Virus record (IMG/VR): IMGVR_UViG_3300046499_000502
Span: 1-64,000 of that record
Length of the DNA: 64,000 nucleotides
Source of the DNA: a virus
Reading direction: 5' to 3' (one strand)
Within the stretch, counting starts at the first letter, position 1. Every line of letters starts with the position of its first letter. The position numbers and the translations under genes were made by a program. Under the pieces are notes generated by a model. That model saw nothing but the letters and a program-made list of their open reading frames with translations. It did no database searches and was not told where the DNA came from. Shown here piece after piece: positions 1,620 to 40,747 of the stretch.

Positions 1620-3680
1620 CTACTTGCTGAGGGCCTCGGTGAGCTGCTCGCGGGTGTAGCCGTTCGGGTTGGCCATGCCGTCGAGCGGGCCGAGCTTGCG
1701 GGTTACGCCTGCGCCAGCCTCCCGAAGACGGGCCTGCAGCTCGGGCTCGGTCAGGCCTTGGTAGCGGTCGGGCTGGTCGGTGATCAGCAGTTCCAGCAGC
1801 CGCGAGGTGCGGGCCCGGTCGACGCCGTCGGCGTCGAGGACGGTCAGACAGTTGGTCAGCAGCTCCTTGCGCGCTGCTGTCTCAAGGTCGGCCTTGCCGT
1901 ATTCGGCGGCGAACCCGGTCAGGGTGCCGGCGTCGACGCGCAACTGACGGCCGCGCAGGCAGATCTCGCGGAACTCGGGGATCGTCATGAAGTCGGTCCG
2001 CAGGGTGACATGGCCCTCTTCGCCGCCCTGGTCAAGGACGACGACGCCCTTCTGCGAGTCGAGCAGCATATGGGGTGCGGCGCCCGCAGCTACAGCGTCG
2101 TCGCCGAGGACCATCCGCGAGCTGGCCGCGCCCTTGACTCGGAAGCAGGCCCGCTTGCGACAGACCTCACGCAGCATGGTCGGCACGCTGGTGGCGTCGG
2201 GACGCTGGGTGATGAACAGGCCCATGCCGCCCGCGTACCGGGAGACGCGCACGAACCGGGCCATCGTCTCGACGAGAACGTCCTTGCCGCTGCGCCCGCG
2301 GTCCTTGCTGTCCGGGTCGTCATCCGTCTTGATCTTCATCATGGCGGCGGCGTCCAAGAGTTCCTGCAGCTCGTCCACGATCAGCAGGGTCAGGCCGCGC
2401 TTCCACTTTTTCGCCAGCTCGGGGGTGAGCTTGCCCTCGGGGCACTGCTCCGGGTGCTCCTCAGAGAGCTGCTCCAGGCGCTCACCGATCTGCTGCATGT
2501 CAGCGATCAGTTCATTCAGCAGATCCAAGAAGGCGAGAATCTTCGCAGGGGTGTTGCCAGCAACATAGGAGACGGCGAACTGCTTGGTAGCAGCCCAATC
2601 CGGGCCCGCCTTCCCGGTTGCCACGTGGACCGTCATGTACGGGTCGAGGGCGGCAGCGGCTGCCACCAGCCGGGCCAGGAACGACTTGCCGTAGTCGGGC
2701 AGACCTCCCAGCAGGATGGAGCACCACACCAGCTCCAAGATGTGCCGGCCGCCGCGGGCGTCGGTGCCCAGCGGGACGCCGTACTGCCAGAAGTCCAGTC
2801 GGTCCGCGGTGAGCAGCGGCGAGGGTACCGGCTTGGATCCGTAGGGGTTGGCCTCGTTGGCGACCCACAGCACGAACCGTCCCTCGTGGCCGTCCTCGGA
2901 GAAGTCGGCGTGCATCTCGACCTGGGACTTCTTCACCCTGAGCGCCGAGGCCAGTTCCTCTGCGCGGGAGATGGCGGTGGAGGCTTTCATGCCGCCGGGC
3001 AGTTCGACTGTGGCGGTCCAGCCGGGGCCGGACGGCTGGATGATGCCGACGAGGCGGGTCTCGTCACGCTGGGCGTCGCTGATGATCCCCGACTTGACGA
3101 GGGCGGTGACGAGGTCGGCTTCGCCGAGTACGCGCCCGTCGTATCGCTCGCCGCGCGGCCCAGCCGGCAGCGGCTCCACGCCGGGCTGGCTGCGGTCGCG
3201 GCCGTGGAACGCGCCGAGCCCCCAGGCGCTGAGGCCAGCGACGAGGTCGAGCCACAAGCTGCCGGTGACGGCGCCGAAGCCGACTCCCCCGGCGACCGCT
3301 CCGGACACGCCCGCGGTCTTGCCCAGGAACGCCTTGCGGTGCTGCCTGTAGTCGGCGCGGTAGTCGTCGGCCTTGCGCTTCCAGGTGCCCGCCACATTCG
3401 GGTCACCGGCTGCGTCGCGCACGGCCTGGTCGGCGTCAGCGATCAGCTGCGGGTAGTGGTTGTGGTAGCGCTCGACCCAGCGGCGGCCGAGCTGCCGGTA
3501 GCCGCGGAAGGTGTGCGGCAGCAGGGCCAGGGTGGCGATCCGGTTGGTGGTCTCGGCGACCGTCTTGGCCGACTCGATCCACGTCGAGCGGCCGGCCGCG
3601 GCGTCCTTGAAGACGGGCATCTCGGCGGGCGGCGGGACGAGCGTCAGCGGCGGGCGCTCGTCGGTCAGCGGGGTGGCCAT
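1620..3680 (-). CDS. tra: FtsK/SpoIIIE-like conjugative DNA translocase (TraSA/TraB type)
   Basis: A 686-residue motor ATPase expected to move double-stranded plasmid DNA between mycelial cells as a membrane hexamer. A hydrophobic Gly/Ala/Leu stretch near residues 122-160 is the likely membrane anchor. The FtsK-type Walker A is GGLPDYGKS (about 323-332) and the Walker B is LLIVDELQEL (about 430-440). The last 80 residues look like the winged-helix DNA-recognition domain of this family. The ATG at 3680 overlaps the preceding stop as TGATG. There is no relaxase gene nearby, as is usual for Streptomyces dsDNA transfer. A chromosome-segregation FtsK is unlikely given the length and the Spd neighbour. 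Confidence 0.9.
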   Translation of the reverse strand: MATPLTDERPPLTLVPPPAEMPVFKDAAAGRSTWIESAKTVAETTNRIATLALLPHTFRGYRQLGRRWVERYHNHYPQLIADADQAVRDAAGDPNVAGTWKRKADDYRADYRQHRKAFLGKTAGVSGAVAGGVGFGAVTGSLWLDLVAGLSAWGLGAFHGRDRSQPGVEPLPAGPRGERYDGRVLGEADLVTALVKSGIISDAQRDETRLVGIIQPSGPGWTATVELPGGMKASTAISRAEELASALRVKKSQVEMHADFSEDGHEGRFVLWVANEANPYGSKPVPSPLLTADRLDFWQYGVPLGTDARGGRHILELVWCSILLGGLPDYGKSFLARLVAAAAALDPYMTVHVATGKAGPDWAATKQFAVSYVAGNTPAKILAFLDLLNELIADMQQIGERLEQLSEEHPEQCPEGKLTPELAKKWKRGLTLLIVDELQELLDAAAMMKIKTDDDPDSKDRGRSGKDVLVETMARFVRVSRYAGGMGLFITQRPDATSVPTMLREVCRKRACFRVKGAASSRMVLGDDAVAAGAAPHMLLDSQKGVVVLDQGGEEGHVTLRTDFMTIPEFREICLRGRQLRVDAGTLTGFAAEYGKADLETAARKELLTNCLTVLDADGVDRARTSRLLELLITDQPDRYQGLTEPELQARLREAGAGVTRKLGPLDGMANPNGYTREQLTEALSK

Positions 3681-4156
3681 CAGAGTGTCAGTCCCTTCCA
3701 GGGTGCGGTCTGTTCGATGCGAGCTTGAGTGCGGGCCATACGGCTGTTCGGGAGGGTGTCGCCGCGGACGCGGCGGGGAGGCGTTCCGCCGTTCCTTCGG
3801 CGCCCGTCTGCCGGGCCCGTCACGTGCGGCGAGAGGTAAAGGAGGCCGGCTTGCTGGCAGGCGATGTCCCAGACTTCGCGAGCCGAGATCAAGCCGAGGC
3901 TCGACGTCTCCGTCCACCCGAACTCCCGCATCTCGTTCCGGGTCAGGTAGGGCGGGACGAACAGACGGTGCCGAATCTCGAAGAGAGCCATCTGTTCTAT
4001 CTGTCGAGCGATCCGGGAGTTGGTGACCTCAAGTGCCCGGTAGGGCTCCCATCCGCGCCGGCCGAACTCTTCCAGCCGGGTCGCCGTGGGGGTCGTGTAG
4101 CCGATCTTCACGGCACGGAAGTTGGGGTGGGTGATGACGTAGGTAAGGGCCGTCAT
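3680..4156 (-). CDS. T5orf172/GIY-YIG-like protein with a repeated C-terminal tail
   Basis: A 158-residue protein. Its N-terminus MTALTYVITHPNFRAVKIGY, with later Arg and Glu residues (FGRRGWEP, QIEQMALFEIR), resembles the T5orf172/MUG113 branch of the GIY-YIG nuclease fold. Whether it is catalytically active cannot be judged. Residues 117-145 form a tail (DGRRRNGGTPPRR...GDT) that closely matches the tail of the adjacent membrane protein. It overlaps both neighbours by one to four bases, so it belongs to the tra operon. It may nick or bind the transferred DNA or act as an adaptor; both are inference. Confidence 0.7.
   Translation of the reverse strand: MTALTYVITHPNFRAVKIGYTTPTATRLEEFGRRGWEPYRALEVTNSRIARQIEQMALFEIRHRLFVPPYLTRNEMREFGWTETSSLGLISAREVWDIACQQAGLLYLSPHVTGPADGRRRNGGTPPRRVRGDTLPNSRMARTQARIEQTAPWKGLTL
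3722..3808 (-). repeat. duplicated coding segment, copy 1
   Basis: Encodes residues 117-145 of the T5orf172-like protein. It is similar in DNA and protein to 4198-4284: about 18 of 29 residues are identical, with the shared core NGGTPP and GDT. The two copies lie 476 bases apart in the same orientation. Confidence 0.7.
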
Positions 4157-5463
4157 TCGGACGCCTCCTGCGTGTTACGCGCAGCTGTCTCTCGCCCGAT
4201 CTGCCGCCTCGCTCCTTCGCTGTACGGCTTGGTGTCGCCGGGCCGACGAACGGGCGGCGTGCCGCCGTTGTTGCGGCGCCCATCCGGCGCTTCGGGATCC
4301 CGCTTCTGGCGCCCCTTGATTTGGGATTCGATCAGCGACAACGACCCCAGAACGGGGGCTTCGGTGACGGTCCGCATGTGGGCTTGCGCAGCCTGCGACT
4401 GCGCCTCGATTTCGGCGCGGATTCCGACCGTCTTGCAGCCCGTCACGAGGAGCCAGGCCTCGGCCCAGATCTGCTCGGTGACGTACTGCGAACCGCGGGC
4501 GGAGCGGAGCGCGTCGGCAACCTCCCACACGTCCGGGTGCTGCTCGCGGCGGTCGGTGTCGCGCCGCTGCTGCTCCTCCGCGGCAGCCTGCTCCCGAGCC
4601 GCCTTCTCAGCCGCGGCCTTCGCCTCCGTCTCCGCCTTGGCCTTGGCCGCACTCGCTCGGGCAGCCTCCTCGGCTTCAGCCTTCTTCTCTGCCGCCCGCC
4701 GCTCCCGCCACGACGGGATCCCATCAGCTTTCTGGGCGATGCCGTGCTCGTAAGCCATCAGCACGATCGGCCCGCCGAGGGAGGCGATAGCGCCGATCAG
4801 GCCGGCGTTGAAGCCGATCCGCGGGTCGGACAGGCCGCCGTACATGTTGATCCCTGCGGCGATCGCGGCGCCGAGCATGATGCCGACCCGGTAGGGGGCG
4901 ACATCCCGCCGGTGGGCGACCGCCCACGCGGCACCGAACGCAAGGACGAGGGCGAGGCCTTCGAGGAGCGCAGGCGCAGCAATCAGGAACGGGCGGGCCC
5001 GGTCCCAGAAGTGCATGAACTGCACCGGCGCGGCGATGATCAGGCCGACCGCGTAAATGCCGCGGGCGCCCCACCTCCACCAGCGCTCGCTGCGCTCCTG
5101 CTCGGCCAGCTGCTGCGCCTCCCGCCCGGCCTCCTCCTTCTCCGCCTTCTCGGACTTGGCCTGCTCGGCGTTGTGCTTCGCCGTCTCGGCAGCCTTCTTC
5201 GCGAGGGCGGCCAGGTGGTCGGCCTTCTCCTTCTCCAGCCGCATCGCGGCGCGCTCGTTGGCGATGCGCTCCTTCTCGGCCTTCTCGACGGCGAGGATCT
5301 TCTCGGCCTCGGCCTTGCCCGCCGCCTCGGTGCGCAGGGCGTCGGCTTCGGCGGCGGCTCGGGTACGGATCGCCTCCGCCTCGGCCAGTGCGCGCGGGTC
5401 AAATCGCGGCTCGGGCGAGGTCTTCGGCGTGCCGTTGACCTTTTCGACGGATACGGCGGTCAC
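4153..5463 (-). CDS. spdB: SpdB-like (DUF2637-type) membrane protein for plasmid spreading
   Basis: A 436-residue protein. Residues 25-125 form an Ala/Glu/Lys-rich helix, probably a coiled coil. Four transmembrane segments follow at about 134-152, 158-182, 192-210 and 218-238. A second charged helix covers about 250-310, and then comes a soluble C-terminal region ending in the duplicated tail. This architecture matches Streptomyces SpdB/DUF2637 proteins, which help intramycelial spread of conjugative plasmids and cooperate with the Tra motor. GTG at 5463 was chosen because it follows the previous gene with a normal gap; longer versions are Arg/Pro-rich junk. Confidence 0.85.
   Translation of the reverse strand: MTAVSVEKVNGTPKTSPEPRFDPRALAEAEAIRTRAAAEADALRTEAAGKAEAEKILAVEKAEKERIANERAAMRLEKEKADHLAALAKKAAETAKHNAEQAKSEKAEKEEAGREAQQLAEQERSERWWRWGARGIYAVGLIIAAPVQFMHFWDRARPFLIAAPALLEGLALVLAFGAAWAVAHRRDVAPYRVGIMLGAAIAAGINMYGGLSDPRIGFNAGLIGAIASLGGPIVLMAYEHGIAQKADGIPSWRERRAAEKKAEAEEAARASAAKAKAETEAKAAAEKAAREQAAAEEQQRRDTDRREQHPDVWEVADALRSARGSQYVTEQIWAEAWLLVTGCKTVGIRAEIEAQSQAAQAHMRTVTEAPVLGSLSLIESQIKGRQKRDPEAPDGRRNNGGTPPVRRPGDTKPYSEGARRQIGRETAARNTQEASE
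4198..4284 (-). repeat. duplicated coding segment, copy 2
   Basis: Encodes residues 394-422 of the Spd-like membrane protein (DGRRNNGGTPPVRRPGDT onward) and matches the tail of the next gene at 3722-3808. Confidence 0.7.
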
Positions 5464-13589: not shown

Positions 13590-13786
13590 GCCTGCCTCCG
13601 CACTTCGTGCCGCCCGCCAACACCGCGCTTGATCCGCCCGCGGGTATCGAGGTGGCCGTCGGCGTCGGCGAGCATCCGCACCGCGCGGGCCAGCACGTCG
13701 CCCGGGATCTCGCCGCGGTAGCAGCGGGACAGGATCTCCGCCGTCTGCGGGTCGACCATGACCAGCGGGGCACGGGCCGGGCTCAC
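13586..13786 (-). CDS. small hypothetical protein
   Basis: A 66-residue protein starting VSPARAPLVMVDPQTAEILS with GTG at 13786 overlapping the previous stop. It is helical with a basic end. It lies between the LuxR-type gene and the 206-residue gene, in the same operon. Confidence 0.6.
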   Translation of the reverse strand: MSPARAPLVMVDPQTAEILSRCYRGEIPGDVLARAVRMLADADGHLDTRGRIKRGVGGRHEVRRQA

Positions 13787-14403
13787 GACCGGGCCTCCTT
13801 GCCGGGCTGGGACACGGCGGCGGGGTCGAGGCTGTGCCCGGGGCACTGGACGTAGACCATTCCGGGCTGCGGCCACCACACGTGCGGAATGTGCGGCTGA
13901 TGAAGTACCGCTCGGCTGCACGGCACCACCTCCACGCCGGAGGTGACGACGTGGTCCCCGGCGTGCCCGGCGGGCTTGATGCAGCCGGAGCCGTCACCCG
14001 GGCCCTCGCCGTAGGGGCAGTCGGCGGCGGGCTGCGTCTCGGGCTGGGGCGCCTCGTCGGCCATGCGGCGCAGCTCGGTGGCACGGCGCCGCAGCCTGCT
14101 TTCCGCGTCGCTGAGCGCGATGCGCTGCCGGAAGTCGTAGCGGTGGTACTCGGCGACGTTCACGTCCGTGGTGTCGCGCATCTCGGCTACGACGTCGGCC
14201 GCGGCGCTCCACTCGGCGGCACGACCGGCAGGCGCGGCCTGCACGAGCGCGATCACCTCACGGGCCGCAGCCAGATAGTGCGAGCAGGACGCGCCGTTCG
14301 GATCACTCGCCCAGGGGACGCCGCCATCGCCCCAGTCCTTCGCGGCGAGGTGACGGGCGACGCGCTCCTCGACGTCGGCCTGCGGGTTGGTGGTCTCGGG
14401 CAT
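13783..14403 (-). CDS. hypothetical protein with a C-terminal Cys/His segment
   Basis: A 206-residue protein, MPETTNPQADVEERVARHLA onward. The first 130 residues are helical. A zinc-like segment follows (DCPYGEGPGDGSGC, then HAGDH) and a VQCPGH near the end. ATG at 14403 has GGAG six bases upstream. An alternative ATG at 14481 overlaps the preceding stop but adds a low-complexity leader. Confidence 0.7.
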   Translation of the reverse strand: MPETTNPQADVEERVARHLAAKDWGDGGVPWASDPNGASCSHYLAAAREVIALVQAAPAGRAAEWSAAADVVAEMRDTTDVNVAEYHRYDFRQRIALSDAESRLRRRATELRRMADEAPQPETQPAADCPYGEGPGDGSGCIKPAGHAGDHVVTSGVEVVPCSRAVLHQPHIPHVWWPQPGMVYVQCPGHSLDPAAVSQPGKEARS

Positions 14404-14477
14404 CGTGCGCTCCAGGTCGTGGGAGGGTTCGGGGTGCGGGCCGACGCCGATACCAGCGGCGTCGGCCCGTCCTGCGG

Positions 14478-15317
14478 TCATGCGGCGGGGTCGAGGTGCT
14501 GCTGGACGATGCGCTGATGCCAGCGGATCGCCCAGTCCGGGCAGTTGGCGCAGTTCTTGTGCGTGTGGCCGGGCATCGGGTCGGAGCGGCGGGCGTCCAT
14601 CGACCAGGCCATCGAGTCAGCCGAGACGAGATCGTCCGCGTAGGCGCCGAGGCCTTGGGTCTTCACGCCGAAGCCGTGCAGGCGCAGACCTTGGCCCGCG
14701 AAGTGCTGCACGATCTCCCGGATTTCGTCGGTGGCCTGGCGGCGGCAGACGGATCCGAGGCCGACGACGGGCTGCGCGGCAAGGTCGACCCCGGCGTCGG
14801 CGTACATCTGGGCGCAATGCTGGTAGTCCTCGAGGCTCTGGCCCTGGAGGACCGGGATGAACGGGAGCTCTGGCGCGAGGCGCTTCAGCTCGAGGTAGTT
14901 GTCGACCGTGAACCGCTGGTGGATGCGCACGGCGGTCGTCAGGTCCTGCTCCGGGTCGAACGGGCCGAGCCCGCGGGCTTCACGGGTGCCGTGGAACGTC
15001 ATGCCGTTGAGCACGCCGCCGCGGATGACGGCCTCTTCGCACATCCAGTCCTGCGGGGCGGCCCATTCGAGCTTGCCGATCGCCTCGGCGTACCTGCGGA
15101 CCTCGGCGACGTAAGCCTCCGGCGTGAGGGTCCACCGGCCGTGACGCTGCAGCTCGGTGAACCCACCGGAGTCCAGCGCCCACGGCGACTTGGCGCGGGG
15201 GAAGGTTTTGCGGTCCTTGAGACGATTACGGGAGATGAACAGCGGTATGTCCGAGGTGGCCAGCCAGTTCGGCATGTGGGTGCCCAGGTAGAACCTGGTG
15301 CCCTCCTCGGCGGTCAC
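14478..15317 (-). CDS. dpdA: DpdA-like 7-deazaguanine DNA transglycosylase
   Basis: A 279-residue member of the tRNA-guanine-transglycosylase-like superfamily. It has ALDSGGF at 47-53 (the substrate-binding Asp of this fold), VVGLGSV, LHGFGVKT, and ADSMAWSMDAR at 233-243 where the TGT nucleophile Asp lies, then a CxxC (NCANCPDW). Phage DpdA proteins exchange guanine in DNA for 7-deazaguanine derivatives such as preQ0, which blocks many restriction enzymes. The overlapping upstream gene encodes a YhhQ-type preQ0 transporter, which strongly supports this function. No preQ0 synthesis genes are in the window, so the base should come from the host or by salvage. Confidence 0.85.
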   Translation of the reverse strand: MTAEEGTRFYLGTHMPNWLATSDIPLFISRNRLKDRKTFPRAKSPWALDSGGFTELQRHGRWTLTPEAYVAEVRRYAEAIGKLEWAAPQDWMCEEAVIRGGVLNGMTFHGTREARGLGPFDPEQDLTTAVRIHQRFTVDNYLELKRLAPELPFIPVLQGQSLEDYQHCAQMYADAGVDLAAQPVVGLGSVCRRQATDEIREIVQHFAGQGLRLHGFGVKTQGLGAYADDLVSADSMAWSMDARRSDPMPGHTHKNCANCPDWAIRWHQRIVQQHLDPAA

Positions 15318-15832
15318 GCCGCCACCGCCTGACGGCGACGGCCGATGACCGCGATCACCGCGACCGCGGCCAGCGTCATCCACGCCTTGCCGAGCAGTTG
15401 GCCAGGCAGGAACTCCAGCGAGTGGAACGCCAGCCACAGGAAGATCAGGCTGTCGGCGGCCAGGCCCACCGCGTTCGAGGCGAGCATCGCCGTCAGCAGG
15501 CCCCGGCGGCGCAGCGGCTCGTACACGGCGAAGTCCATCGCCTCCGACACCGCGAACGCCGCAGCCGAAGCAGCAGCCAGAGCCGGATCGGCCAGCCACC
15601 ACGACAGGGCAGCGCCCACAACGATCGCCGCCAGCACCGCGGCACGGCCCGCAGCCTCCCGGGCCAGATCGCGCAGGACCAGAGCGAGACCGACGGTGTA
15701 CACACCAGCCGGGGCGAGGTAGCCGAAGCCGACCGGCTGAACGCCGAAGCGGGTCACGAGCCAATTCGCGGCGGGGATGGTGGCGATGTAGGCGGCCAGC
15801 AGGGTAGCGGCGGCGAATCGGCGAGTGGTCAT
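15314..15832 (-). CDS. yhhQ: YhhQ-family (DUF165/VUT) preQ0 transporter
   Basis: A 172-residue integral membrane protein with about six hydrophobic helices. It starts MTTRRFAAATLLAAYIATIP, with the family-typical ANWLVTRFG and the SEAMDFAVYEPLRRR signature. YhhQ proteins import preQ0/preQ1. Its stop overlaps the dpdA start as GTGA, so the two are translationally coupled, a pairing known from phages with 7-deazaguanine DNA. It is expected in the host inner membrane. Confidence 0.88.
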   Translation of the reverse strand: MTTRRFAAATLLAAYIATIPAANWLVTRFGVQPVGFGYLAPAGVYTVGLALVLRDLAREAAGRAAVLAAIVVGAALSWWLADPALAAASAAAFAVSEAMDFAVYEPLRRRGLLTAMLASNAVGLAADSLIFLWLAFHSLEFLPGQLLGKAWMTLAAVAVIAVIGRRRQAVAA

Positions 15833-15933
15833 GCGGTTCCTCCGTGGGCATCTCGGGTGGTGGGGTGGGGTGCGCCGCCGGTTTCGGGCCGGTCGGCGAC
15901 GTCGGGCGGGGAACAACGCGCGACGGGGGTTAG

Positions 15934-19815: not shown

Positions 19816-20550
19816 CTAGGCGGCGGGCAGTAGTCCGCCGCGGGCGATCGCCTTCAGGCGCTTGTCGGGGTCTGGTTCGCTGCGGGCGCCCCATTCGCCG
19901 GCTGTGATGAACTCGCGGCCGATGTACTTCGTGTAGGCGGGCGGGATGGCCTCGGTGAGTTCCTCGTGGACGTCGGTCCATGTGATGTCCATGGCGGCCT
20001 GCATCTCGGCGACGTTGCCCTTGCCGCCGCCTTTGCCGTAGGCGGCGATGTACGGTCCGTCGCGGTACACGCCGTGTCGCCAGCCGCGGACCGGACCCCG
20101 GTGCCGCTTGTGCTCGGGCTGCCGGGCTGGCGTGGCTCCGATCCATCCGAGTTCGAACTTGCGGTGCCGGATCACGCCGAGCCCGAACATTTCGCCGCAC
20201 AGGTTGAGGTCGGCTCGCATGGGGGCGCCGGCCACGTTCTCGATGACCCAGTCGACGCCGAACCACAGGCACAGTTCGCGCATCTCGGCGAGGAAGTCGG
20301 CGTACTCGCGGCCCCGGTTGGTGCCCTTGGTGAGGGCGGTGTGGGGCTGGCAGGGCGGGGAGGCGTGGACGAGGTGAAATTCCTGGCACCGTTCCCGCAT
20401 GACGTCGAGTGCGTTGCCCTGGATGAACGTGAACGGGTAGCGGGGGCGGTCCACGATGTCGACGCCGACGACGTCGAAACCAGCCCGCCAGTAGCCCATG
20501 CCTGCACCGCCGGCGCAGCAGAACAGGTCGAGGACGCGGGGGCGCTTCAT
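19816..20550 (-). CDS. DNA C5-cytosine methyltransferase
   Basis: A 244-residue methyltransferase with motif I DLFCCAGGAGMG (8-19), the catalytic ASPPCQP with Cys67, motif VI ENVAG (104-108), and a short target-recognition region. There is no restriction endonuclease partner nearby, so it is an orphan phage methylase, probably protecting phage DNA from host restriction. Its recognition sequence cannot be read from the protein. Its start overlaps the preceding stop. Confidence 0.9.
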   Translation of the reverse strand: MKRPRVLDLFCCAGGAGMGYWRAGFDVVGVDIVDRPRYPFTFIQGNALDVMRERCQEFHLVHASPPCQPHTALTKGTNRGREYADFLAEMRELCLWFGVDWVIENVAGAPMRADLNLCGEMFGLGVIRHRKFELGWIGATPARQPEHKRHRGPVRGWRHGVYRDGPYIAAYGKGGGKGNVAEMQAAMDITWTDVHEELTEAIPPAYTKYIGREFITAGEWGARSEPDPDKRLKAIARGGLLPAA

Positions 20551-33279: not shown

Positions 33280-34551
33280 ATGGCCAGACGCGCGCAGGAC
33301 GTCTACACGGAGTGGCGGGGCGGCACCTGCCGCGTGAAGTGGTGGTCGGGCGAGTATCACGACGACGGCCGCAAGCGGTTCGAGTCCAAGGGCGGCTTCA
33401 CCGACGAAGAATCGGCGTTCCAGCACGGCCAGGACAAGATCTACGAGATCCGTCACGGCATGCATGTGAAGAACGCCGACGGCGCCACCCTCATGTCCGA
33501 CTGGCTCGACAGCTGGCTCGCGGGCCTCGACCACGCGCATCTGACGGAGCGGAACTACCGGTCCATCGTTGAGACCCACATCCGCCCCTACTTCAAGAAG
33601 CGCAACGCTGCCGTTGCCGACATCGACGTGATGGCCTTCCGAGCCTTCCGCAAGCACATCAACGGCGTACTGAAGCCGAACACGGCGAAGAAGGTCATGA
33701 CGATCTTCGGGATGATTCTCGACGATGCTGTGCCGCGACTCATCAAGACCTCCCCGGTGGAGCGCACCAGGCGCCGGGGTCGGTATACGCGCAAGCCGAA
33801 GGAGCGCAAGCCCGACATGACGGCCGCGGCCGTGGAGCAGCTCGCGGTCAACGCCCGGACGCTGCTGGGCGATTCGGGCTACGTCTTCATCTGGACGATG
33901 GCCTGCACCGGGATGCGGCCGGCGGAGCTGTACGGGCTCACCCGCGAGTACTGCTACCCCAACTGGCCCGGCATGGACCTGCGATCGAACCCCGACGACC
34001 ACGACCGCTACAACGACGACCTCGCGCGGTACGGCAAGGGCGACAACCTCATGCCCGCGATCCGTGTTGAGCGGCAGGTGCAGTACAAGGACGGCGGGCT
34101 CGCGTTCATGCCGCCGAAGTATGAGTCGTACAGGACGCTGGTGATTCCGCCGTTCCTGGCGGAGATGCTGGAGCAACTGCTCTCCTCGCACGACAGGCCG
34201 TGGGTCTTCCCGGCGCTCGAGGGCGGGAGTCTGGGCGTGGTGAACTTCGACTACCGGTGGTGGCGTCCGATGGCTGACGGCGCCGAGAAGCGCGAGGCGA
34301 AGCAGGCCCGGTGGAATCGCCCGGCCATCCCCGCAGTGCCGTCGTTCGCGGGCCGGCGCCTGTATCTGGTCCGCCATGGCGCGAAGGCGTGGCTGGACGA
34401 GGACGGCCACAGCCGGTTCGCGGTGGAGTCGCGGATGGGCCACGAGGTGCCGGGCGTCGAGGGCGTCTACTCGTCCGTGACAGTGCCGATGGAAGAGGGC
34501 ATCATGAAGACGTTGCAGGAGCGTTGGGACGGGCTCCAGGAGCGGAAGTAG
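33280..34551 (+). CDS. int: tyrosine-family integrase
   Basis: A 423-residue recombinase. The N-terminal AP2-like arm-binding region spans about 1-60, a SAM-like core-binding domain about 70-165 (LTERNYRSIVETHIRPYFKK), and the catalytic domain about 185-400. It has Arg213 (TGMRPAEL), Arg365-His366 (YLVRHG) and Tyr397 (GVYSS). The box-II HxxR motif has Tyr362 where His is usual. I chose ATG at 33280 with AAGGGGCG upstream; a longer in-frame extension to 33079 overlaps another gene. Direct-repeat arm sites follow it. Confidence 0.9.
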   Translation: MARRAQDVYTEWRGGTCRVKWWSGEYHDDGRKRFESKGGFTDEESAFQHGQDKIYEIRHGMHVKNADGATLMSDWLDSWLAGLDHAHLTERNYRSIVETHIRPYFKKRNAAVADIDVMAFRAFRKHINGVLKPNTAKKVMTIFGMILDDAVPRLIKTSPVERTRRRGRYTRKPKERKPDMTAAAVEQLAVNARTLLGDSGYVFIWTMACTGMRPAELYGLTREYCYPNWPGMDLRSNPDDHDRYNDDLARYGKGDNLMPAIRVERQVQYKDGGLAFMPPKYESYRTLVIPPFLAEMLEQLLSSHDRPWVFPALEGGSLGVVNFDYRWWRPMADGAEKREAKQARWNRPAIPAVPSFAGRRLYLVRHGAKAWLDEDGHSRFAVESRMGHEVPGVEGVYSSVTVPMEEGIMKTLQERWDGLQERK

Positions 34552-39730: not shown

Positions 39731-40747
39731 TCAGAGCCCGATGTCTTCGCTGGCGGCGTCGGTCCACTTGTCGGCTTCGCGGATGTAGCCCCAGAAGGCG
39801 GGGCTGTTCTCGGCGTGGCCGGACTGGGCGCGGATCTTCTCCTCGCGCTTGCCTGCGATCCTCGAGGTCGTGATGAACCCGGCCCGCATGGAGTGGCCCG
39901 TCAGCCGGACGGCGATCCCGGCGCGCTCCGCGTTCCGGGCGATGATCTCGCGGCAGGCTTCGGGCGAGAGGCTCCTCGAGCCGACGTTGCCCCATACGTC
40001 GATGGGCAGGAAGGCGGGTCCGCTCGTGATGACGCTCGAGGACTTCCAGGTGGACCAGGCGCGGACGGGGCAGGTGTCGGGGTTCTTGCCGTAGGCGACG
40101 ACGACGTCTCGAGCGGGGCGGCCTTTGACGGAGGGGACGTGTACCTCGAGGCCCATGCTCGAGAGGACGATGCCTTCGACGGTGAGCGCGGCGACTTCGG
40201 CGGATCGGCCTGCGATGCCGAAGGCCATGAGCCATAGGGCGCGGTCGCGGAGGCCGGTCAGGCTCGAGGGTGCGGCGGCGCTCATCTTCCGCAGTTGCTC
40301 GGCGGTGGCTGCTGGGGCTTGCCCGCGTCCTCGAGCTTGGCGTTCGGGGTCGAGCTTGAGCGGCTTGAGGGCTTGGCGGGCGGCGACAGTGGCGGCCTTG
40401 GGGACTTCGACGCCTTGGCCTCGAGCGGTGACGGTGACGCCGGTGATGCGGCGGTCGATGCTGTTGGGTGCGGCGAGTTTGATGGTGTCGAGCCAGACGA
40501 CGAATCCGACGAGCGTGCCCTTGGTTACGGCGGTCAGCGGCAGCGGCTGTCCGGTGCGTTCGGCGAGCCAGTCGTGGAACTCTTCCCAGAGTGCCCAGTC
40601 GTTGGCGTAGCCGCGCTTCGTGTTGTGGGGGCGGATGGCGTCGAGGTGTTTCTCGGCTGCCTCTTCCATGGCGGCCAGAACAGCGAGCGTCGCAGCGTCG
40701 TAGGCGGCGGGGGTGGCGTCCGGCTGGCGCGGGGCGAGGTCGGTCAT
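39731..40747 (-). CDS. second tyrosine recombinase
   Basis: A 338-residue recombinase. A core-binding domain (about 35-110, HNTKRGYANDWALWEEFHDW) precedes a catalytic domain with Arg181, Lys208, His285-x-x-Arg288 (GHSMR), His311 (SGH) and Tyr321 (FWGYIREAD). All catalytic residues are present. It resembles element-borne recombinases more than classic phage integrases. It may resolve dimers, mediate a second integration or serve a captured element. Nine CTCGAG sites cluster inside it. Its start overlaps the preceding stop. Confidence 0.87.
   Translation of the reverse strand: MTDLAPRQPDATPAAYDAATLAVLAAMEEAAEKHLDAIRPHNTKRGYANDWALWEEFHDWLAERTGQPLPLTAVTKGTLVGFVVWLDTIKLAAPNSIDRRITGVTVTARGQGVEVPKAATVAARQALKPLKLDPERQARGRGQAPAATAEQLRKMSAAAPSSLTGLRDRALWLMAFGIAGRSAEVAALTVEGIVLSSMGLEVHVPSVKGRPARDVVVAYGKNPDTCPVRAWSTWKSSSVITSGPAFLPIDVWGNVGSRSLSPEACREIIARNAERAGIAVRLTGHSMRAGFITTSRIAGKREEKIRAQSGHAENSPAFWGYIREADKWTDAASEDIGL

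Follow-up and report, generated by a model that had tools for sequence, protein, structure and literature searches.

A transporter gene coupled to dpdA in an actinobacterial siphophage suggests a salvage-type 7-deazaguanine DNA-modification cassette

The IMG/VR virus record IMGVR_UViG_3300046499_000502 (70,334 bases), of which positions 1 to 64,000 were analysed as a single stretch of 64,000 nucleotides (the window), carries a gene for a Vut/QPTR-superfamily transporter coupled to a gene for a DpdA-type base-exchange enzyme. In our reading, which we consider probable, this pair equips a temperate actinobacterial siphophage with a salvage-type cassette for 7-deazaguanine DNA modification. The reading builds on the families of the two proteins, the fold of the enzyme and the conservation of its presumed catalytic residues, on how often the pair recurs and on the relatedness of the transporter to its counterparts in dpd islands that make preQ0. 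From these we infer transport, the identity of the substrate, DNA as the target and protection: the transporter, placed in the host membrane, would import a preformed 7-deazaguanine base, with preQ0 the likeliest; DpdA would remove guanines from the phage DNA by a TGT-type exchange in which Asp49 and Asp234 are catalytic and would insert the imported base; and the inserted base would shield the phage DNA from restriction nucleases. Its recurrence in many phages makes the pair look like a small toolkit by which DNA could be disguised while the base itself need not be synthesised. Phages with DpdA, YhhQ homologues in phages and the presence of YhhQ in dpd islands are already known. New here are a short phage Vut subfamily coupled, as a rule, to a gene of the DpdA/TGT type, in either gene order and from one of three enzyme families, and an actinobacterial branch of this subfamily that, judged from sequence, includes the transporters of dpd islands.

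Genes for terminase, portal, major capsid, tape measure, endolysin and integrase, together with RecE/RecT-like and DnaB-like genes, identify the record as a temperate siphophage. A Streptomyces-like actinomycete host is suggested by its GC content of 68%, by short segments similar in DNA sequence to Streptomyces phages and by the nearest genomic DpdA relatives, which are at home in Streptomyces; the phage is probably one of Streptomyces. The window contains two integrase-like genes (33280-34551, plus strand; 39731-40747, minus strand), and at its left end an FtsK/SpoIIIE-like gene and an uncharacterised 436-aa gene (1620-3680 and 4153-5463, minus strand) recall an actinomycete conjugative element and could belong either to the phage or to flanking host DNA. 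The features of the locus are as follows.

15838..15843, minus strand: Shine-Dalgarno-like GGAGGA, five bases upstream of the transporter gene (letters of the sequence)
15314..15832, minus strand: Vut/QPTR-superfamily transporter gene, 172 aa, ATG start (open reading frame, PF02592, PHROG_4899)
15314..15317, minus strand: four-base overlap GTGA, comprising the transporter stop and the dpdA start (letters of the sequence)
14478..15317, minus strand: DpdA gene, 279 aa, GTG start, predicted TGT-type base-exchange enzyme (PF23859; 7ui4 the best solved match)
15171..15173, minus strand: codon of Asp49 in ALDSGGF, predicted catalytic aspartate (invariant in 53 relatives; aligns with DSGGF of E. coli Tgt)
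14616..14618, minus strand: codon of Asp234 in SADSM, predicted nucleophile (invariant in 53 relatives; aligns with SFDS of bacterial DpdA)
13783..14481, minus strand: gene 3' of dpdA, 232 aa, overlapping dpdA by ATGA (open reading frame)

Because dpdA also overlaps the next gene (14481-13783), the pair lies in a tight operon to which the 232-aa gene belongs as well; family searches with this third gene gave no match. A DNA methyltransferase gene (PHROG_363; window 19816-20550, minus strand) is co-directional with the pair and may provide a second DNA mark.

The first-pass annotation had recognised a DpdA-like transglycosylase in the open reading frame 15317-14478, and the 279-residue protein does match the models and structures of known DpdA proteins. 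It scores 291.9 bits against Pfam PF23859 (DpdA; cut-off 27, E 5e-87) and 3e-86 against PHROG_1279. An AlphaFold2 model (pLDDT 93), for which 53 sequences were aligned, has as its best solved structure 7ui4, a DNA preQ0 insertase DpdA (E 5e-7), and the other 14 matches with E<=0.001 are all tRNA-guanine transglycosylases, with TM-scores of ~0.5 for a protein some 100 residues shorter than the matched structures. The protein is accordingly modelled with a TGT/DpdA fold. This match came from the fold search; sequence profiles of DpdA and of the transporter found no solved structure. Invariant across the 53 aligned sequences are D49, S50, F53, Q158, G159, D234 and S235, and the motifs of the window protein line up with DSGGF in E. 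coli Tgt and, in bacterial DpdA, with QGW and SFDS; since these profile alignments are short, and the one with Tgt not significant, the catalytic role of D49 and D234 is provisional. As a possible trace of the TGT zinc site (three Cys, one His), DpdA has a CxxC pair and a His close to it (HKNCANC...WH), of which only C259 is nearly invariant in the conservation summary. Compared with six relatives, dN is well below dS in both dpdA and the transporter gene, indicating purifying selection on both.

The partner had been annotated as a YhhQ-type preQ0 transporter, a description that stands for the superfamily and fails for orthology. The protein exceeds the cut-off of PF02592 (Vut_1; 38.6 bits against 27.2) and matches PHROG_4899 (4e-37), whereas it falls below the cut-offs of the queuosine-precursor transporter model TIGR00697 (39.1 against 50.95) and the E. 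coli-type YhhQ model NF008406 (22.2 bits against 252). Assignment to the Vut/QPTR superfamily is therefore safe and 'YhhQ orthologue' is not: E. coli YhhQ (QPTR, COG1738) has the Pfam Vut_1 superfamily in common with the window protein, which lies far under the cut-off of the YhhQ model. Its structural model has six long predicted helices (pLDDT 96), and a fold search found resemblance only to ECF S-components, at non-significant scores. We predict from its family and from the genomic context of its kin that it imports a 7-deazaguanine base; substrates within the QPTR family vary, being preQ0/preQ1 for E. coli and queuine for Chlamydia (PMC11130926).

As the first-pass annotation had noted, the base would have to come from elsewhere: genes for QueC, PTPS/QueD, radical SAM (QueE), FolE and FolE2 were not found in the 70,334-bp record, which is possibly a partial genome. 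Nor did that same record yield a DndB-domain protein (DpdB), so that it differs from a bacterial dpd system in having neither the DpdB partner nor the preQ0 genes.

The four-base overlap and the coupling of the two genes, both claimed at the outset, are borne out. Such overlaps are common in phages, and the overlap by itself was discarded as evidence; the pairing exceeds chance because it recurs in many lineages. Genes were called on 234 loci (with L012/L088 and L001/L104 as duplicate records), and in 45 of the 48 loci that contain both, the two genes adjoin each other on the same strand; the gap is exactly -4 in 28 of the 48. A less biased test used 72 IMG/VR phage loci found by the transporter alone, in which a DpdA/TGT-like gene was directly adjacent in 57 and at most two genes away in 65. 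The partner belonged to PHROG_887, annotated as 'queuine tRNA-ribosyltransferase', in 43 of these loci, to PHROG_15826, annotated as of unknown function and bearing a DNGG motif, in 12, and to PHROG_1279 DpdA in 10. A tree of 103 transporters has at least 13 changes of partner type and one of 166 DpdA proteins has 14 changes in transporter presence, at least six on starred branches, counts that are approximate given FastTree trees with many weak branches. The pairing of the transporter with a DpdA/TGT-like gene is no accident. Sinorhizobium phage phiLM21 likewise has overlapping DpdA and Vut neighbours (p025-p026), both annotated as hypothetical, but in reversed order and distant from those of the window (35% and 49% identity). 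PHROG_887 (~226 aa, DNGAF) and PHROG_15826 (~199 aa, DNGG) are further TGT-like families and the usual partners of the phage transporter (for example L094:9303-9983, L152:8674-9354, about 40 more IMG/VR loci, and L112:5225-5824); a Pfam search with four of their members gave no model matches.

The substrate class is firmer than the window alone could have indicated, as some of the transporter's nearest kin belong to queCED-folE2/dpdABC islands; the strongest new support thus comes from outside phages. In four genomes (L239-L242; gene families confirmed for one of the four) a transporter 71-73% identical to that of the window directly follows queC-queE-queD-folE2 and is divergent from dpdC-dpdB-dpdA, a position that ties it to preQ0-type bases. 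A fifth relative, 76% identical, comes from Streptomyces sp. BR123, where it neighbours dpdE and dpdF and where dpdA-C-like and queC/E/D genes lie on the same contig. All five nest with the window transporter in one starred clade of 20. Chromosomal actinobacterial dpd islands (dpdA-C, queC/E/D, folE2, Vut) thus resemble the phage locus in the transporter and in having a DpdA-type enzyme, but possess a longer bacterial DpdA (~410 aa, PADLOC DpdA), DpdB, DpdC, biosynthesis genes and in some cases restriction genes, none of which was seen in the phage. YhhQ has been reported in about 9% of dpd islands by GATOR-GC (PMC11888242); the kinship of phage and dpd-island transporters was not found in the literature searched.

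QueC scored above cut-off in 20 of the 50 host genomes, comprising 8 of the 21 hosts of transporter-bearing loci and 12 of the 29 hosts of loci without a transporter, and these proportions leave unsupported the idea that the transporter compensates for QueC-less hosts. Of three QueC regions inspected irrespective of the transporter, two had the gene in a dpd island. A host's own Dpd system could therefore feed preQ0 to the phage in some cases, and most hosts could not; salvage would be the simplest reason for carrying a transporter. Canonical Tgt was found in a single host genome, and its absence from the other 49 makes a role in tRNA unlikely. Combined with the only tRNA found in the window, tRNA-Gly(TCC), which is not a GUN tRNA, it led us to reject queuosine in tRNA as the likely purpose of the pair.

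Mycobacteriophages of ~68.5 kb carry the DpdA family of the window at about 48% identity. Orion belongs to cluster B1, whose phages are of this size, and from the other mycobacteriophages of this size we infer that its DpdA is of the same family. A recognisable relative of the transporter occurred in no Mycobacterium phage among the 50,697 records searched. Orion grown in M. smegmatis has no detectable 7-deazaguanine (PMC6884629), a negative that fits missing substrate as well, since M. smegmatis is without preQ0 genes (PMC6884629). Orion thus fits an enzyme without supply and equally allows a DpdA subfamily that does not modify DNA. The phage singleton DpdAs (PF23859, PHROG_1279; mycobacteriophages; group 3 of Hutinet et al. 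2019) are of the same family as that of the window (about 48-51% identity) and likewise lack preQ0 biosynthesis genes, but their phages have no recognisable transporter gene, whereas the window phage has one coupled to the enzyme. Rosebush and CAjan, which combine DpdA with the full preQ0 pathway, resemble the window phage in having DpdA as the inserting enzyme and dPreQ0 as the expected product, but make their own preQ0 where the window phage has a predicted importer. Deletion of dpdA in CAjan indicates that the phage enzyme introduces preQ0 and protects DNA (PMC6884629). The annotated replacement of G is known in phages as 7-deazaguanine exchange but overstated in extent, as only about 28-32% of Gs are replaced in Rosebush and CAjan (PMC6884629). 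How DpdA phages without preQ0 genes obtain the base was left open by Hutinet et al. (2019), who found that phage YhhQ homologues correlate with no phage group (PMC6884629).

Against a salvage cassette count the unmodified DNA of Orion, whose group carries the same DpdA family, the transporter score under the curated queuosine-precursor transporter cut-off, the failure of transporter presence to track QueC absence in the host, and the differing substrates of QPTR members (PMC11130926). An alternative with the same chemistry and another purpose is camouflage from the Dpd systems of hosts. The dpd islands found in many actinobacteria label the cell's DNA with 7-deazaguanine bases and attack DNA without the label; the phage, using a relative of their transporter, would copy this mark with a base either made by the host island or imported. 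The single clade of phage and dpd-island transporters agrees with this, as does Streptomyces sp. BR123, which has a close relative of the pair (L156, DpdA 71% identical) as well as a dpd island (dpdA-C, dpdE, dpdF, queC/E/D), but 30 of the 50 hosts are without QueC above cut-off, so that a Dpd target able to make its own preQ0 would often be missing, and we consider camouflage unlikely. It is similarly improbable, in our estimate, that the base imported and inserted is another purine-like one (preQ1, queuine, or an amidated or novel 7-deazapurine) instead of preQ0. Variation of substrate among QPTR proteins (PMC11130926), the distance of the window transporter from E. coli YhhQ and the known phages with dPreQ1, dADG and dG+ (PMC6884629) would allow it, but the nearest kin are found in operons whose pathway stops at preQ0 (queC/E/D, folE2), with no QueF or Tgt adjacent.

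That this DpdA subfamily modifies no DNA, being inactive or acting on RNA or a small molecule while the pair serves another purpose, would accommodate the negative for Orion (PMC6884629), the separate clustering of singleton DpdAs, for which functional divergence was left open (PMC6884629), and the pair's position among non-phage genes in two Streptomyces chromosomes (L157, L243), but it is made very unlikely by purifying selection on both genes, the invariant predicted catalytic motifs, hosts without canonical Tgt, a window tRNA that is not GUN, and the preQ0-less M. smegmatis (PMC6884629), through which Orion fits a lack of substrate too.

Reading Orion as an enzyme without supply gives the salvage cassette a sharp prediction: given a supply of preQ0, phages that have both DpdA and the transporter are expected to carry the modification, and those with DpdA only, such as Orion, are not. 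If true, the restriction resistance of such phages would depend on the base available in their surroundings. More tentatively, several bacterial groups may have phages and conjugative elements that share an import-and-insert cassette of a small Vut and any of three DpdA/TGT-like families; in actinobacteria it would exchange parts with host Dpd islands, copying the host's self-mark or bringing a mark from the environment to hosts unable to make it. We regard this extension as possible and somewhat doubtful.

Several further loci were observed. Stretches with the Vut-DpdA pair in Prauserella and Amycolatopsis species (L194, L196, L197 and L198; ~14-15 kb each) are 99.6-99.99% identical to one another and adjoin serine-recombinase-like and conjugation-like genes; they represent a recently mobile and probably conjugative element. 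In the two Streptomyces genomes mentioned above the pair lies amid apparently chromosomal genes beside an exporter-like gene (L157:5178-6583, L243:3422-6537), and in L243 a transposase-like gene splits it. Fodinicola feengrottensis has a single 406-aa open reading frame (L234:9701-10921) comprising the C-terminal half of Vut and DpdA, which could reflect a fusion, the decay of a former pair or faulty assembly; it was set aside as evidence of fusion, its Vut half being truncated and under the Pfam cut-off. In a prophage-like locus of Actinomadura montaniterrae (L246:5098-6235) the Vut gene is followed by one whose 196-aa product has the motif GADNGKFG and may represent another TGT-like partner family.
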